Positions 138 to 33,597 of a stretch of 42,106 nucleotides of DNA are shown here, one piece after another; the stretch's first letter is position 1; every line of letters begins with the position of its first letter. Source of the stretch: Flavobacteriales bacterium (GTDB lineage Bacteria; Bacteroidota; Bacteroidia; Flavobacteriales_D; Parvicellaceae). The stretch is from the NCBI GenBank assembly GCA_020631555.1, contig JAHDGY010000017.1:1-42106 (forward strand). The letters are read 5' to 3'. Below the pieces are notes generated by a model. That model did no database searches and was not told the DNA's origin. It saw nothing but the letters and a program-made list of their open reading frames with translations. Position numbers and translations under genes: made by a program.

Positions 138-3100
138 TTATCGAATTAGCGTGCAATAGCCGCTGTACTCTTCTCCATCGACATTCAAAAGCACGTAGTA
201 CACCCCTTCAGGAACAGGTTTACCTCCGGCGCTTTGCCCAGACCATGCAGACAATCGTTCACCAGAAGAAGCAAAAACTACCTCACCCCAACGATTGTAA
301 ATGCGTAACTTATTATCTCCCGGTGGAATTTCAGAAATGTAAAACTCATCATTCGAACCGTCATTATTCGGTGTAAAAACATTTGGAATCTCTATCGGAC
401 CGTAACAATATTCCACATTTAAACTGTACGTAATGGTATCGAAACAGCTGTAGCTATTCCGCACAACCAACTTGGCCAAATTTTCACCCTCAATAAGACC
501 TACTTTCAATAGATTACCCTTAAGCACAGCCGAAGAATCCACATAACTCCACACGATGCTATCCACGTTAACTGTAACGTTTTCTAATTCCAATGAATCC
601 CCAGGACAATATGGCGCATTCGTAACCTCGTTCAAATTAGCCGATGGTCTTGGGTAAACCGTGATTACGTTTTGCAACAAGAACTTATCTTCACAGCCCT
701 TGTCACTTACAGCTGTTAACCTTACGGAAAAACTATCCAGCTTCGTACTAGAATAACAATGTCTTCCGGGTTGCTCCAAACTTGACGATTGACCGTTTCC
801 AAAGTCCCAATCGAAAGAGGAAATCGATCCAGATGCAATTGAAGAATTATTCGTAATTGTTATACAAGCTTCTTCACAAGCATCTTGGCCAGAAATGCCA
901 ACAACTATTTTAGGCAACGGACTTATATCAATAAGTTTCGAAATTGTATCGGAACAACCATGCTTACTAATCGCAATAAGCGTTGCAGTTGCTGAAGCAT
1001 CAATACCTGTAAAAGCTGGATTCTTTAGGTTACTAGTCTGGCCATCTACCTTCCATTGCCATTTCGTTACGGAATCTCCAAGCGCATTGCTTACCATTAC
1101 ATTAGTTTGATTCTTCAAAGAGAAATTGTCTTTTGTGCAAATAGGGTCCGTGTTAAAGTATGCAGTTGGTTTACCATAAATAGTAAACGTTTTAGTCAAA
1201 GTATCTGAACAGTTTTTGTCGCTCTTTACTACTAACATGATCCTTTTTTCCCCGGAAGTTTGATACGTATGCCTAGGATTAATTTGATCTGTGAAACTAC
1301 CATCTCCCAGATCCCAACTTGTTGAAGCAATATTTCCAGTTGATTGGTTTTGAATTGTTACGCTTCCCAACTGACAACCATTAGAAGGTGTAGTAAACGA
1401 CGCAACCGGATTTGGGTGTGTGTTTAATGTAATCTTAGCCGTATCCTTGCATCCATAAGACGACTCTGAAATCAACGTAACAGTTTGATTACCCGTTCCC
1501 ATCACCCAATTAGGCGTAAAAAGTTGACTCGTCTGCGAACCCATCTTCCAATTCCATTTCTGTAACAAGTCACTATTATCAAACCCTTTATGACTAGATT
1601 TATTTTCAACCTTCAAGCTATCACCAGAGCAATACTTAAAATCTCCCGCAATTGATGCTACAGGTTTACCATAAATTATGACCGTTTCTTTAATCGTATC
1701 CGAGCAACCTTCAGAAGAAACGACAATAAGTTCCACCGGAAATTTACCCGCCGCTCCAAAAGCACGTTTTACATCTTTTGTGTATTCCTTATCGTTGTTT
1801 TCAAAAGTCCACTTATAATTCGCATTTCCAAACACCGACGATAGATTCTTGAATTGAACAAATTCACCTTGACACGTATCTGTAAAATCAAATTTTGCCG
1901 CTGGATTTGCCTTCACCTCAACTAACTTACTATAAGAATGACTACATCCGTTATTATCTATCACAGTCAATTTCGGGTTATGTATTCCCGATGTTTTGTA
2001 AATCCAACTAATGTTATTTTTTCCAGTTTTTTCGAACCCTGCTGTTGTCTCGAAATCCCAGTTCCATTCTTTTATTTTAACACTGGGCGAATTCGGGTGA
2101 TCTGAATTGTCCACAAACCTAAACTCCGAACCGCTACATCCTCCAGGATTGACATTATTTAGGGAAAAGTTCGCGAGAGGCAAATCAAAGATCTCGACCG
2201 TGCGCTGAGAACTATTCTTACATCCATGTGCCGAGGTTACCTCTAATTTCACTGCATACGTATTTGCAGTTGCATATGTATGTTTAAACTTAACAGCATT
2301 GCTAGAATTTTGATCGCCGAGATTCCAAGAATAGTCCAATGTTCCACTTACCCCTGACGCAATTGCCTCAAATTCTATAGCCTCATTCAAACACGTATCC
2401 CTTGCCGTAAAAGCTACATTTGGCCTAGGGTGAATGGTTATAAATTTTATTAGCGTGTCTGGGCAGCCGACATTATCCGTGACTGCCAGAACAACCTTAT
2501 GCTGCCCCTCGGTTGAAAACTTGTACGAAGCGAACGGTCCTTGTGCATCAATTACACCATCTGCATTAAAATCCCAATAAATTAGGTTAATATTTGCATT
2601 TGACGTGGTCGACGTGTTTTGAAACTGACTTGATTCTCCGAAGCAACCCTCACCTCCAGAAAAACTTGCGTTTGGCTTAACCGCTGGATTCACATGAAAT
2701 TCCTGTACTTCACATTGCCCTTTATAATCAAATCGAACCTTGTAAATCCCACTACCTAAATTCTTTTCACCGACCTTCAAAGTTCCGTTTGTTTCCCCAG
2801 GCAATTCTACATCATTCTTAGACCATTGCCAACTCCCATTAAACCCTGCCTTAGCAGTTAATTCTATATCACCTGTACACAATTTACCAGTTGACTTTAT
2901 AGTTACCACTGAAGTATCAAGGATACTCTTCAAACGAAGGTTGTCGTATAAGAAATAGGGAGAACAGTTTTCATGATAGGCCTGAGGCAAGCCTTCACAA
3001 CTAGGTCCTATGATCAATTGGTTAATTAAATGAGGGAGTGACAGATCAATTTTTACCGTCTGCCAACCGGAGCTTGGGTTATAACTTGTTGCTCCCAACT

Positions 3101-3662
3101 TTTTCCATACATTATTTTCTTTGGGACATCGCGGCGCAGTAAAAAAGGATGCACTATCTGTCCCCGCATACCCAAAAACCTCTATATCAACATTCGGAAG
3201 ACCTACCAGTTCATTTACACCGCAATTCTGTAACTTAAAAAAAGATCCGGCTATGTCAATGGATAGTTCATACTTTCTATTACCAAGAAGCGGTTTGTTT
3301 ACAATTGTCTTTAACAATTCAGTCAGAACTTTAGGTGGAGAAGTTGAGACCTCATTTCTCCACATTGCGAAACCTCCAGCGATTCCATTTCCATCAGGAA
3401 GTGTAGTAGGAACATTATTAGGATAATATCCATTTTTGTGAATATAATCGGCTCCTGACGGACTCGTACTCCAACTCTTACACCCCTTCATTTGGCTAAG
3501 ATGTGTTGGCAGCCATCTGTATTCCTCAAATGAAGGATTTGGAATAATGTCCGTCTCGAGAGTTTCGATGGTGATCCCGTTAGCACAATTATCTTGAGCG
3601 AAGCTCCAAAAGGAAACTCCAATTAGAGTAACAAGTAGTATAAAATGTTTCATCTTTTTCAT
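138..3662 (-). CDS. Giant PKD-repeat T9SS type B secreted protein
   Basis: A secreted surface or extracellular protein of about 1174 residues. The signal peptide begins MKKMKHFILL and ends in SFAQ|D, so cleavage should leave an N-terminal Gln. An N-terminal region of about 240 residues (NPSFEEY, WSTSPSGADY) is followed by one Ig-like and roughly nine PKD-like modules with WDFG/WNWDF-type cores. Most modules carry a Cys near the start and a GCxDT-like Cys near the end, suggesting one disulfide per module. The last ~90 residues are a classic CHU_C / gliding-motility-associated C-terminal domain (IPNVFTPNNDGSNDEF, IYNRWGEVVF, GVYYVLL), the type B sorting signal for T9SS. I chose the ATG at 3662; the open frame extends to a TTG at 3704, but that lies next to a promoter-like stretch. 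An ATG at 3653 is also possible. Role in adhesion or as a structural exoprotein is inference. Confidence 0.9.
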   Translation of the reverse strand: MKKMKHFILLVTLIGVSFWSFAQDNCANGITIETLETDIIPNPSFEEYRWLPTHLSQMKGCKSWSTSPSGADYIHKNGYYPNNVPTTLPDGNGIAGGFAMWRNEVSTSPPKVLTELLKTIVNKPLLGNRKYELSIDIAGSFFKLQNCGVNELVGLPNVDIEVFGYAGTDSASFFTAPRCPKENNVWKKLGATSYNPSSGWQTVKIDLSLPHLINQLIIGPSCEGLPQAYHENCSPYFLYDNLRLKSILDTSVVTIKSTGKLCTGDIELTAKAGFNGSWQWSKNDVELPGETNGTLKVGEKNLGSGIYKVRFDYKGQCEVQEFHVNPAVKPNASFSGGEGCFGESSQFQNTSTTSNANINLIYWDFNADGVIDAQGPFASYKFSTEGQHKVVLAVTDNVGCPDTLIKFITIHPRPNVAFTARDTCLNEAIEFEAIASGVSGTLDYSWNLGDQNSSNAVKFKHTYATANTYAVKLEVTSAHGCKNSSQRTVEIFDLPLANFSLNNVNPGGCSGSEFRFVDNSDHPNSPSVKIKEWNWDFETTAGFEKTGKNNISWIYKTSGIHNPKLTVIDNNGCSHSYSKLVEVKANPAAKFDFTDTCQGEFVQFKNLSSVFGNANYKWTFENNDKEYTKDVKRAFGAAGKFPVELIVVSSEGCSDTIKETVIIYGKPVASIAGDFKYCSGDSLKVENKSSHKGFDNSDLLQKWNWKMGSQTSQLFTPNWVMGTGNQTVTLISESSYGCKDTAKITLNTHPNPVASFTTPSNGCQLGSVTIQNQSTGNIASTSWDLGDGSFTDQINPRHTYQTSGEKRIMLVVKSDKNCSDTLTKTFTIYGKPTAYFNTDPICTKDNFSLKNQTNVMVSNALGDSVTKWQWKVDGQTSNLKNPAFTGIDASATATLIAISKHGCSDTISKLIDISPLPKIVVGISGQDACEEACITITNNSSIASGSISSFDWDFGNGQSSSLEQPGRHCYSSTKLDSFSVRLTAVSDKGCEDKFLLQNVITVYPRPSANLNEVTNAPYCPGDSLELENVTVNVDSIVWSYVDSSAVLKGNLLKVGLIEGENLAKLVVRNSYSCFDTITYSLNVEYCYGPIEIPNVFTPNNDGSNDEFYISEIPPGDNKLRIYNRWGEVVFASSGERLSAWSGQSAGGKPVPEGVYYVLLNVDGEEYSGYCTLIR

Positions 3663-3711
3663 GTAAAACGAATTGCCATAAACAATCACAATTCGCTTCG
3701 GCAAGACTACG

Positions 3712-29132: not shown

Positions 29133-29163
29133 TAAAAAAGGAGGCCGAAAGACCTCCCTTTTT
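29133..29163 (-). terminator. Terminator of the first T9SS paralog
   Basis: GGAGG (29140-29144) pairs with CCTCC (29153-29157) around a small loop. T-runs flank both sides, so it could work in either direction; on the minus strand it follows the stop at 29185. Confidence 0.8.
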
Positions 29164-29184: not shown

Positions 29185-30537
29185 TTATTTTACCACCATG
29201 ATTGGATGTGTAGTAGAAGTTCCACCAGCTGTTAACGTATAGAAATACTGGCCTTCTTTGAATTCTCTTGTGTCTAGCTCAATCTTTTGCTCTCCTTGCT
29301 CTACATTTTGATAACTTCTTGAATGAATCACCCTACCAGTTACATCCGTAACCGTAAGATTTACGTCTCCTGATTTCTCCAAATCGTATACAATATTGGT
29401 TCGGTCATGTGCTGGATTCGGATATACTTTTGAGCTCTGGATATCCGAATTATCGCTTACTCCTGAATAAATTTCATCTTGTGAAATTTTGAAATATGCC
29501 GCCAACGACTCCTTCCCATACCCTTTACCAAAAGCGTAGAAGGGAATATACTGTCCTCCCCAAGCCGACAGATTATACTTCGCATTACTAGTTAGAACAT
29601 AAGAAGCATTAAAATCGTCCCTCTTATAAACGGGATAGGTGTCTTTTCCTGCCAGCTCCGAGCCCCAAATTTCTAATGAATTGGTATTAACGAATGCCGT
29701 ATCTGACAATGAAATGGTTTTGCCCGGCACAAAAGCCACCTCCAACGCAAAAATCCCCTTCGCCGCACCAGGAATAACCCAATCCGCCTTAACTTTCACT
29801 TTGTGTCTTCTCTGCTCACCTGACCGCGAACTATCTGCATAAAATGCATCATCCAACGGTATCTTAATTTCCTTTGAATAACCTCTAATTGAATCCTTAT
29901 CTAAATGGTAATATAGTCGTTTAAAAAAAACAGTATCCTTAAACTCGGCTTGCAATTTGGGAAAATAGCCTGTAGTCTTCAATTTGTCCCCAGTCACAAA
30001 CCTCAACCTTAAAGTATCAACAATATCTTTTTCAAAACGAAAATATTCTGTAACGATTAGCATACTATCAAGAATAATTTCATAGTCTGTCTCCAAATCC
30101 ACTGAATGTTTCCACTGTGTATAAAACAAAGGACTATTTAAATCAACTACTTGCGCGAATCCATGTTCCCTATTTGCTACTGCTGTATCCTTCTTGTCCT
30201 TGGTTTTATACGTATATCTGGTAATCGAGTCTGCAGTTAAAGCATCTCCACTCCACAATATTTGCTTTACATTCGGATGTTCTTTTTGGTAGGCTCCAGC
30301 ATAATTGATCCAAGCCGAATTCACTCCCCTTAAACCATTTTCACGACTTTGATTATTTACCTCATAATCAGAATTATTCCCAGGAAATTGGTAAAAGTTA
30401 CCATCTTCCTGCTGAATCAGCTGGTGATGCTGAAGTTCTGAACTGTTAATGTTTTTAACTTGAGATTTCTCTACGTGTTGCGCACTTACGGCCATAGCCA
30501 ATGAAGCACTTACCGCAACGGCGAAGCTTTTCTTCAT
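29185..30537 (-). CDS. T9SS type A secreted protein, tandem paralog 1
   Basis: 450 residues. Signal peptide MKKSFAVAVSASLAMAVSA|QHVEK (Gln at +1). The last ~80 residues are a T9SS type A sorting domain (VYPNPAHDRTNIVYDLE, VTDVTGRVIHS, GQYFYTLTAGG, VVK). The body shares a family architecture with the next two genes: WINYAGAYQKE, a DSITxYTYK segment, IILDSMLIVTEYFRFEKDIVDTLRLRFV, KIPLDDAFYADS, WVIPGAAKGIFALEVAFVPG, and KRDDFNASYVLTSNAKYNL followed by KISQDEIYSGV. I know no domain name or function. This copy is the most diverged of the three. Monocistronic, with terminators after it. Confidence 0.85.
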   Translation of the reverse strand: MKKSFAVAVSASLAMAVSAQHVEKSQVKNINSSELQHHQLIQQEDGNFYQFPGNNSDYEVNNQSRENGLRGVNSAWINYAGAYQKEHPNVKQILWSGDALTADSITRYTYKTKDKKDTAVANREHGFAQVVDLNSPLFYTQWKHSVDLETDYEIILDSMLIVTEYFRFEKDIVDTLRLRFVTGDKLKTTGYFPKLQAEFKDTVFFKRLYYHLDKDSIRGYSKEIKIPLDDAFYADSSRSGEQRRHKVKVKADWVIPGAAKGIFALEVAFVPGKTISLSDTAFVNTNSLEIWGSELAGKDTYPVYKRDDFNASYVLTSNAKYNLSAWGGQYIPFYAFGKGYGKESLAAYFKISQDEIYSGVSDNSDIQSSKVYPNPAHDRTNIVYDLEKSGDVNLTVTDVTGRVIHSRSYQNVEQGEQKIELDTREFKEGQYFYTLTAGGTSTTHPIMVVK

Positions 30538-30663
30538 AGTAATTTTTTTATTAATAAACTGCCTTAAAGGTTGGATTTATACGTATAAAATCCTAATATT
30601 TTTATACAAAAAAACTAGATTACTACGATAAAACCAAAACTGGATACCACAACAAACCTAAAC

Positions 30664-30709
30664 AAAAAAAGGCTGCTCCAGCGGTGAACTTTCACCGCTG
30701 GAGCAGCCT
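30664..30709 (-). terminator. Terminator with 18-bp perfect stem
   Basis: Bases 30671-30688 pair perfectly with 30691-30708 around a 2-base gap (an A-T pair can extend it). A run of seven T follows on the minus strand. It lies downstream of the stop at 30735. Confidence 0.85.
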
Positions 30710-30734
30710 CAAAAATATCTTGCGTTTACTTAGC

Positions 30735-32021
30735 CTATTTGCTCACCACCAATCTTTTGGTTACTGATTGCCCTTGGGCACTTATGACGCAGTTGTAAAA
30801 GCCATCTGAAAGACTTTCTGTATTAACCTCTATCACTTGCGAACCGGTTTCAAACATACCGAAACTTAGGTTCTGCACAACCTTGCCAGAAATATCAGTA
30901 ATCACCATCTGAACTTTTGACGGCTCCGCCAGTACGAAATTAACATTGGCCGACTCCGAAGCTGGATTTGGATAAATAGAACTTACCTCAACTTTGGCTC
31001 CTTCTGCCATGCCAAGCACCACGTCATCCTGGGAGAGTTTCAAAGACATTTGGGTTGATTCAAAACCATGTGGATTGATATAAGCCCAATGCGGTGTAAA
31101 AATACCATTAAAACTGCCTGCCAAATTATATCTCGCATCCTTTTGCACAAACTGATTAGCGTTGAAATCCCGTTTAATATAATTGGCAAAAGTTTGTGCA
31201 TCCTTTTCCAAACCAATCATATCCACTTGTAGCGCATTGATATGTTTGCCTAACGTATCTCCCGGTTTTACTGTCGTATCACCCGGAACAAAAGTTAATA
31301 CAATGGAGAACACGCCATTATTGGCTCCCGGACTTGTCCAGCCTAACTTCTCATTTACAATATTTGTTCTTTCCTGCCCAGATCCAGTACCGCCCGCAAA
31401 AAATGCACTGTCAAGTATTATTTTTTTCTCTAAGGTATATCCAACAGGAAGATTTTTTGCCTGGTCATACTTTATTGGTATAAAGGATAATGTATCCCCA
31501 GGAAAAGACGGCCAATTCACACCAAAGGAATATTGTGAAGTAGAGGCAGGCACATATCGAACTACAAGAGTGTCTACAACACTATCATTAACACGATGAT
31601 ATCTAGTGACAACTTTAATGCTATCAATTTGGATATCGTAATTAGGCTGGTAAACGTAATTTCCGTCCCACTGATCCCGAAACAGTTCGCTTCTCAGGTC
31701 ATACGTTTGAGCAACATGATAATAATCTACAGGCCTTGCTCCTGAAGAAAAGTAATTATGAACAACTGTTGAATCCGGATAAAGGTATGGACCAATATAC
31801 CCCACTAGTTCGGAGCCGTAGAACTCCTTATATGCAGAAGCATAATTAATCCAATTTGATCGAATTTCGCGCAACGACCCGAAATCTTCATCCCCTTTGA
31901 TTTGCTTCAATGGGCGCAAATCATTGGACTTCCCAAACACTGTCATTTGCTCTAAATTTTGCCCCATCGACAATGCAGGAGCCATTGTAATCAATAAAAT
32001 TGCGTTTAATTTTCTTATCAT
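30735..32021 (-). CDS. T9SS type A secreted protein, tandem paralog 2
   Basis: 428 residues. Signal peptide MIRKLNAILLITMAPALSMG|QNLEQM (Gln at +1). The body aligns with its neighbours: SNWINYASAYKEFYGSELVGYIGPYLYPDSTV, VAQTYDLRSELFRDQWDG, DSIKVVTRYHRVNDSVVDTLVVRYVP, WTSPGANNGVFSIVLTFVPGD, YIKRDFNANQFVQKDARYNLAG, and LKLSQDDVVLGMAE. It ends in a type A sorting domain (SIYPNPASESANVNF, ITDISGKVVQNL, DGFYNCVISAQG, RLVVSK). No catalytic motif is evident and few Cys occur. It likely forms an extracellular beta-rich protein; the role is unknown. Confidence 0.85.
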   Translation of the reverse strand: MIRKLNAILLITMAPALSMGQNLEQMTVFGKSNDLRPLKQIKGDEDFGSLREIRSNWINYASAYKEFYGSELVGYIGPYLYPDSTVVHNYFSSGARPVDYYHVAQTYDLRSELFRDQWDGNYVYQPNYDIQIDSIKVVTRYHRVNDSVVDTLVVRYVPASTSQYSFGVNWPSFPGDTLSFIPIKYDQAKNLPVGYTLEKKIILDSAFFAGGTGSGQERTNIVNEKLGWTSPGANNGVFSIVLTFVPGDTTVKPGDTLGKHINALQVDMIGLEKDAQTFANYIKRDFNANQFVQKDARYNLAGSFNGIFTPHWAYINPHGFESTQMSLKLSQDDVVLGMAEGAKVEVSSIYPNPASESANVNFVLAEPSKVQMVITDISGKVVQNLSFGMFETGSQVIEVNTESLSDGFYNCVISAQGQSVTKRLVVSK

Positions 32022-32325
32022 AAGTTTGCATGTTTGTAATTAACTAACCTAAACAATTACCAAGGATAATTCAATAATCATCAAATATATAAAGAAAATG
32101 AACCAATTTAACTAACACACCCAATTAACCATTGTGCAATCAATAACTCTGGAAATAATCAATTATTCGCACCATTATAGAGGATTGACAATTCGAACAA
32201 TTTGAAGCCTTAGCTAGCCACCTAAAACGGACAATATTGGGCGCTATTTGATTACCAACTGCCAACCATTCTAACAAAAAAGGCCACCCAATGGGTGGCC
32301 TGAAGACTTATGATGAGAAAGTATC
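32022..32325. other. Intergenic region between T9SS paralogs 2 and 3
   Basis: 304 AT-rich bases. They contain the terminator of paralog 3 (at 32281-32301) and, beyond it, the presumed promoter region of paralog 2. No exact TAnnTTTG on the minus strand was found. Confidence 0.5.
32275..32301 (-). terminator. Terminator of the third T9SS paralog
   Basis: AGGCCACCCA (32281-32290) pairs with TGGGTGGCCT (32292-32301), practically an 8-bp stem with a 5-base loop. Six T follow on the minus strand, 25 bases past the stop at 32326. Confidence 0.85.
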
Positions 32326-33597
32326 TTACTTTACAACCAAAACCTTTGTAATAGCATTAATACCATCAGAAAGCGTGTAGTTGTAATATCCGGCTACTAA
32401 CTCCGCAGTATTGATTTTCATACTTTGAGCCCCGTTTTGAACCAATCCTTCGTTGATCTCTAACACAACCTTACCAGTTACGTCAGAAATAATCAAGCTG
32501 ATATTTGCTGGATTCGTCAAAGCATAATTTAAGGTCGCCTGCCCTTCTGCAGGATTAGGGTAAATAGAATTTACAGAAATATTACCATTCTCGGCAACTC
32601 CAGCAACAACATCGTCCTGAGAAATTTTGAAAGCCATTGCATAGGATTCCCAACCAAATGTTTCTCCGTATGCCAGCATTGGTAAATAAGCACCATTCCA
32701 ACCTCCGGCTGTATTGTAGCGTATTATTTTGTTTACATAGTGACTACAATTGTAATCACGCTTGATATACTGCGGAAATGAATTTTTACCTTCTAGCTCG
32801 AATGAACGCACACGGAATCCATTTACATCTTTACCTATAATATCTCCATGTTTTGTAGAATCACCCGGAATGAACGAAACCTCAACGGAAAATACTCCTC
32901 CACTTGATGCAGGAATAGTCCAGTTAGTTTCCACGGCAACTATATGGTTATACTCACCGCTATCCGCGTAAAATTCGCTAGTCAACGGAATTTTCAATTC
33001 TTCTGTATAACCCACAAGTTTCTGAGAAGCTTGATCGTACGATAAACGATCGATGAATGTGGTATCGTTAGGAAAAACTGGCCAGTTAACTCCATAAGCT
33101 TGCTTTGTACTAGCTCCTCTTGGCACCATTCGGAGAACCAATGTGTCTACTACATCCTTCACTCTGTAATATTTCGTAGTCATAACAATGCTATCTAATG
33201 TAATGTCATATCCAGTATCAAAATTGTAGCCGTCAAATCGATCAGTTAAAATAGATGAGTTTAAGTCAACAGTTTGAGCAATGTTATGTACCCACCACCA
33301 GATAGAATCCTGTCCGTAGACAGCAATAACAGTTGAGTCAGGAGTAAGGTACGGGCCATAATAAAGCGCTAATTGACTACCATACTCTTCTTTATAACTA
33401 GTAGGATAGTCAATCCATGTAGATTGTATTTCACGCTCTGAATTTTCTCCGAAACCGTTTATCATGTACGATGGCAAATGCTCCAACTGAATTTGGCTGT
33501 CACCAGTATTTTTAACTGTGTGCATTTGTTTAAATTCTTGACCAAAGGAGGTCAGCGTCCCCACAATTGCCAAAATAACAATGTAACCTTTCTTCAT
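32326..33597 (-). CDS. T9SS type A secreted protein, tandem paralog 3
   Basis: 423 residues. Signal peptide MKKGYIVILAIVGTLTSFG|QEFKQM (Gln at +1). Shared family segments: STWIDYPTSYKEEYGSQLALYYGPYLTPDSTV, IAQTVDLNSSILTDRFDGY, DSIVMTTKYYRVKDVVDTLVLRMVP, AYGVNWPVFPNDTTFIDRLSYDQAS, WTIPASSGGVFSVEVSFIPGDS, QYIKRDYNCSHYVNKIIRYNTAG and FKISQDDVVAGVAE. The C-terminal type A sorting domain has SIYPNPAEGQATLNY and ISDVTGKVVLEI, ending LVVK. It is closest to paralog 2, so the triplet probably arose by two rounds of duplication. Function unknown. Confidence 0.85.
   Translation of the reverse strand: MKKGYIVILAIVGTLTSFGQEFKQMHTVKNTGDSQIQLEHLPSYMINGFGENSEREIQSTWIDYPTSYKEEYGSQLALYYGPYLTPDSTVIAVYGQDSIWWWVHNIAQTVDLNSSILTDRFDGYNFDTGYDITLDSIVMTTKYYRVKDVVDTLVLRMVPRGASTKQAYGVNWPVFPNDTTFIDRLSYDQASQKLVGYTEELKIPLTSEFYADSGEYNHIVAVETNWTIPASSGGVFSVEVSFIPGDSTKHGDIIGKDVNGFRVRSFELEGKNSFPQYIKRDYNCSHYVNKIIRYNTAGGWNGAYLPMLAYGETFGWESYAMAFKISQDDVVAGVAENGNISVNSIYPNPAEGQATLNYALTNPANISLIISDVTGKVVLEINEGLVQNGAQSMKINTAELVAGYYNYTLSDGINAITKVLVVK

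Follow-up and report, generated by a model that had tools for sequence, protein, structure and literature searches.

The window, by which we mean the whole 42,106-nucleotide stretch analysed, corresponds to contig C57 in a 2.87-Mb assembly (87% complete) from an uncultured Flavobacteriales-type bacterium. On its minus strand lie the three open reading frames that the preliminary description had reported: copy 3 (P0003, 32326-33597, 423 aa), which is transcribed first of the three, copy 2 (P0002, 30735-32021, 428 aa) and copy 1 (P0001, 29185-30537, 450 aa). Translations inspected by eye show Sec signal-like N-termini in all three copies, with a basic start, a hydrophobic stretch and then Q; the signal-peptide-like starts, on the minus strand, are MKKGYIVILAIVGTLTSFGQ in copy 3, MIRKLNAILLITMAPALSMGQ in copy 2 and MKKSFAVAVSASLAMAVSAQ in copy 1. 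At the other end, each protein carries a type A T9SS sorting domain (PF18962, Por_Secre_tail; Pfam cut-off 27 bits), located on the minus strand at 32335-32565 in copy 3 (38.6 bits), 30744-30977 in copy 2 (45.6 bits) and 29197-29427 in copy 1 (50 bits). All three matches exceed both the Pfam and the NCBIfam cut-offs, in agreement with the earlier assignment. The bodies of the proteins, ~285 residues in each copy, are encoded on the same strand at 32605-33444 (copy 3, residues 52-331; family profile E 2.7e-102), 31017-31877 (copy 2, residues 49-335) and 29467-30336 (copy 1, residues 68-357), the latter two also matching the family profile. The surroundings in the window are housekeeping genes, and gene context gives no functional hint. 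The window also encodes a second class of T9SS cargo, a 1188-aa PKD-repeat protein (138-3704) whose sorting domain is of type B (CHU_C).

Whole-length blastp comparisons gave 43% identity between copies 2 and 3 (E = 3e-109), and 33% both between copies 1 and 3 (E = 1e-76) and between copies 1 and 2 (E = 2e-62), establishing that the three bodies are homologous. When only the bodies are compared, copies 2 and 3 share 47-48% identity as against 35-37% for copies 1 and 3, so that copies 2 and 3 are the closest pair, as first proposed. The shared order of segments described earlier is present in all three copies, with some letters substituted in copy 1, e.g. DSM for DSI and KYNLSA for RYNLAG. No DNA-level similarity among the three copies is detectable, so the duplications in the window are old.

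Each gene is followed by its own intrinsic terminator on the minus strand, a hairpin with a T-run, as had been noted. The one after copy 3 (32281-32301) has a 9-bp stem and the one after copy 2 (30669-30710) a 19-bp stem, both much longer than the stems at the other sites listed; the one after copy 1 (29134-29157) consists of the hairpin GGAGGTCTTTCGGCCTCC (29157-29140) followed by T6. The scan listed this last site on the plus strand; read on the minus strand, it was confirmed by eye as GGAGGTCTTTCGGCCTCC-TTTTTT. Overall, the consensus scan returned 6 terminator-like sites where 4.9 are expected. Together with upstream gaps of 200-450 bases, the terminators suggest that the three copies may be expressed separately. 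The Bacteroidota-type promoter motif TANNTTTG occurs in the window at chance level (58 vs 49).

The own genome encodes the partners that such cargo would need. It contains a SprA match of 2498 bits and two PorU homologs over cut-off (1274 and 1266 bits); since both components are encoded, the export pathway for type A cargo is present. These two full-length PorU sortase homologs stand side by side at C1:43681-47046 and C1:47669-51028, and a third, diverged PorU match is found on C60. About 90 type A sorting domains score over cut-off in this genome. The window proteins are like other T9SS type A cargo (PF18962 / TIGR04183) in their Sec signal-like start, secreted body and C-terminal sorting domain over cut-off, but differ in that their bodies belong to no named family and carry several positionally conserved O-glycosylation sequons.

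That no domain name can be attached to the body was borne out by searches of Pfam, NCBIfam, PDB sequences and PDB profiles, none of which gave a match to the body. Likewise, no curated domain was matched in the bodies of 63 full-length family members scanned, all 63 of which matched the sorting domain. Half-against-half profile comparison gave no sign of an internal duplication of the body. AlphaFold2, run with the three window bodies and two relatives as input, produced two body models, both weak (pLDDT 45 and 43.5, pTM 0.54 and 0.53) and both beta-rich, and a PDB fold search with them returned no match at E <= 0.001; the best matches, non-significant, were mostly jelly-roll capsids. From these poor models, the fold may be beta-rich.

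Two named domains that occur in the same bacterial class were considered as kin of the body and rejected. DUF4270 (PF14092) gave one weak local match to a narrow family profile (E 3e-4, DS...DP...IDSI), yet its profile-profile similarity to the body is not significant (hhalign probability 0.6%, E 0.1), and neither is that of CBM96 (PF24517; probability 0.1%, E 0.4). As a separate observation, DUF4270 matches the end of CBM96 through its own C-terminal part (profile-profile, E 3.6e-4, probability 37%; L062, L149-L168), which hints at a possible CBM96-like jelly-roll fold for DUF4270.

Relatives were gathered stepwise, by sequence search in relatives, then with a 12-row and then with a 23-row profile. 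The 12-row profile found the family in 15 of 299 genomes across the order, the 23-row profile in 87 of 395 across the class, and in a separate phylum-wide draw of 396 genomes, those listed being mostly near-complete and from other families, it was found only in the own genome. The named relatives are two Flavobacteriales metagenome assemblies. Profile matches to proteins of ~1,270 aa were left out of the family as weak (E above 1e-4), two of them being subtilases, and viral contigs, scanned with a single protein and with three alignments, yielded no relative. The family is old, patchy and spread across many less-studied Bacteroidota families; its absence from the genera of the phylum-wide draw may be the reason why it has no database name.

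The tandem family at the locus is real, as originally described, but is not peculiar to it, for the own genome holds at least three more copies, a tandem pair on C108 and a single copy on C79. In addition, C48:7743-8223 (L136) contains a decayed copy, in which an in-frame stop interrupts the body fragment and the sorting tail stands apart from it. Another kind of cargo is also duplicated in tandem in this genome, as two neighbouring, similar-looking proteins of ~610 aa at C64:21059-26932 (L007, L008). In a maximum-likelihood tree of 65 bodies (quick method, SH-aLRT support only), the three window copies cluster with the C108 pair (support 93), so that at least five copies stem from an expansion specific to this lineage; the branching order within this group is not settled by the tree.

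Neighbouring family genes occur at 16 of 50 loci, spread over several unrelated branches of the tree. Families f84 and f98 carry an adjacent orthologous pair made up of the same two subfamilies, so that adjacency itself has been retained, and an adjacent pair is kept in f13 too. In 12 loci from several bacterial families (L094, L097, L100, L102, L103, L105, L107, L108, L124, L127, L129 and L133), gcvP lies beside the family gene or two open reading frames from it, and a convergent MlaE/MlaF pair often stands on the other side. We read this conserved synteny with gcvP as an ancestral position and not as the sign of a role in glycine metabolism.

The most distinctive feature of the body is its pattern of Asp-Ser and Asp-Thr pairs. 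D-(S/T)-(A/I/L/V/M/T) is the Bacteroidota O-glycosylation motif, with near-full occupancy in non-cytoplasmic proteins (PMC8550257, PMC12871550) and a third-residue preference for L, I, V, T, A, S and M (PMC12871550). Scoring the sequon as D[ST][AILVMT], we found 6-8 per window copy, every one inside the body and on the minus strand. In copy 3 they lie at 33331-33339 (DST, residue 87), 33301-33309, 33187-33195 (DSI), 33139-33147 (DTL), 33058-33066 (DTT) and 32854-32862 (DST); in copy 2 at 31767-31775 (DST, residue 83), 31617-31625 (DSI), 31578-31586, 31566-31574 (DTL), 31488-31496, 31404-31412, 31272-31280 and 31251-31259 (DTL); and in copy 1 at 30223-30231 (DSI, residue 103), 30181-30189, 30061-30069 (DSM), 30010-30018 (DTL), 29929-29937, 29887-29895 and 29695-29703. 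Across the family, the strongest body columns pair an Asp with a following Ser or Thr (PDS-T, LDS-I, VDT-L, DT-x and GDT-[LI]).

The 65 bodies contain 337 sequons as against 77 +/- 9 in composition-preserving shuffles, a 4.4-fold excess that, because the bodies are related, reflects conserved positions and not 65 independent draws. Control motifs gave 0.76 (E for D), 0.84 (N for D) and 1.07 (reversed) of expectation. Every body has at least 3 sequons (mean 5.2), and six alignment columns contain 285 of the 337, leaving 52 outside these columns, below the shuffle expectation for the whole body. Two sites are near-universal, with a sequon in 63 and 62 of the 65 sequences and a third residue that is almost always aliphatic. 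Outside the body, the family proteins are nearly free of the sequon: their C-terminal parts (5,843 residues in total) hold a single one and their N-terminal parts (1,859 residues) none. At the same loci, the ratio to expectation is 1.25 for soluble proteins without a signal peptide and 1.93 for secreted-like proteins, as sorted heuristically, compared with 4.4 for the bodies. A similar but weaker tendency is seen in 54 unrelated sorting-domain cargo from the collected loci, whose bodies have 193 sequons vs 104 expected (1.85-fold) and whose tails have 1 vs 11.1 +/- 3.4 expected, suggesting that these lineages are users of O-glycosylation. In the type A tails of the unrelated cargo, D-[ST] with any other third residue is likewise rather scarce, and the depletion may thus partly reflect fixed sequence.

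These observations lead us to the following reading. Sec would export each window protein to the periplasm, where O-glycans would be added at several fixed D-[ST]-[hydrophobic] sites of the body. The C-terminal sorting domain, free of sequons, would then direct the protein through SprA across the outer membrane, after which PorU would cut this domain off, leaving the body anchored at, or released from, the cell surface. There, the body would most likely work as an adhesive or structural surface domain, no conserved catalytic constellation being seen in it, and the tandem paralogs (33-47% identity) would display different variants. We give this explanation as a whole, a T9SS type A cargo with an O-glycosylated body and an adhesive or structural role at the surface or in secreted form, a probability of about 0.5. 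Within it, we infer glycosylation of the D-[ST] sites from the motif, and a surface location is predicted for the family proteins. The adhesive or structural role is probable, as judged from the fusions of the body, its lack of a catalytic signature, the diversification of the paralogs and an analogy with the S-layer of T. forsythia. As to the fusions, in same-family relatives LTD and PKD modules stand between the body and the tail (Pfam matches in two), a third relative shows a like LTD/PKD continuation that ends at a contig edge, and other members have Ig-like or SprB-repeat-like stretches, all of which fits a binding or structural module.

An alternative explanation is that the D-[ST] pairs are structural, serving as turn or strand-start caps or as ion ligands (e.g. 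for Ca2+) in a beta-sandwich, that glycosylation is incidental or absent, and that the body is a ligand-binding, e.g. carbohydrate-binding, jelly-roll. The Bacteroidota glycosylation system takes both S and T, and the D-[ST] sites keep fixed positions and for the most part a fixed choice between S and T (58 S to 5 T in one column, 60 T to 3 S in another), which is the main caution here and points to structural D-[ST] pairs, possibly instead of glycosylation. The aliphatic third residue at the two universal sites would likewise suit a core-facing strand residue. The beta-rich character of both weak models and the prevalence of jelly-roll capsids among their non-significant matches also agree with it, and the conserved W, Y, R, N and G in the C-terminal third of the body could make a binding face. 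However, the comparisons with CBM96 and DUF4270 are non-significant (E 0.4 and 0.1), and the sequon excess together with depleted tails in cargo of other folds is hard to explain by structure alone. We regard this alternative as possible but less likely.

A second alternative concerns copy number only and is compatible with the other readings, namely that the tandem copies arose as a by-product of ordinary gene duplication in a genome rich in cargo and do not differ in role. The abundance of type A sorting domains, the unrelated tandem cargo on C64 and the decayed family copy on C48 are in its favour, but the copies have kept open reading frames despite their age, and f84 and f98 both retain the orthologous pair of subfamilies side by side, with a pair likewise kept in f13; we consider it somewhat unlikely. 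Finally, that the body acts as an enzyme of some unrecognised kind, e.g. a hydrolase acting on extracellular polymers, is very improbable, for although many T9SS cargo are enzymes (PMC10202324) and several Asp are invariant, each invariant Asp precedes S/T in repeated motifs and not in one single site, the strongest columns show neither a conserved pair of Glu nor Cys nor a cluster of His that could bind metal (Cys and His make up 0.4% and 1.7% of residues), and no Pfam, NCBIfam or PDB relative was found. We conclude, by an argument from silence, that the body is probably non-enzymatic.

Returning to the reading of the body as an O-glycosylated surface or secreted domain, a more far-reaching version of it can be drawn by analogy with TfsA and TfsB of the T. 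forsythia S-layer, a two-component layer whose proteins are T9SS-exported and O-glycosylated on the D-[ST]-x motif (PMC10202324, PMC4175972, PMC8550257). In this version, small T9SS glycoproteins with fixed O-glycan sites, often encoded as adjacent, co-inherited pairs, would build a coat or an adhesive layer on the surface of poorly cultured Bacteroidota, as a small-protein counterpart that works like the Tfs layer. TfsA and TfsB are 133 and 151 kDa in size, whereas the window proteins have 423-450 residues and are likened to them by mode only; we consider the coat a speculative and rather improbable proposal.

In summary, this is a new family inside a known kind, T9SS type A cargo, and not a new kind of system; what is new, at the level of sequence, is that the near-invariant body residues are D-[ST]-[hydrophobic] triplets that match the Bacteroidota O-glycosylation sequon. 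Cargo of which the searched databases know nothing but the sorting tail can now be placed in a defined domain family that can be named and for which a profile, a tree and a distribution are at hand. A link between two hallmarks of the Bacteroidota also becomes testable, in that sequon-rich cargo bodies stand against an almost sequon-free sorting tail. If this pattern is wider, glycans may be kept away from the segment that the translocon and PorV have to read.
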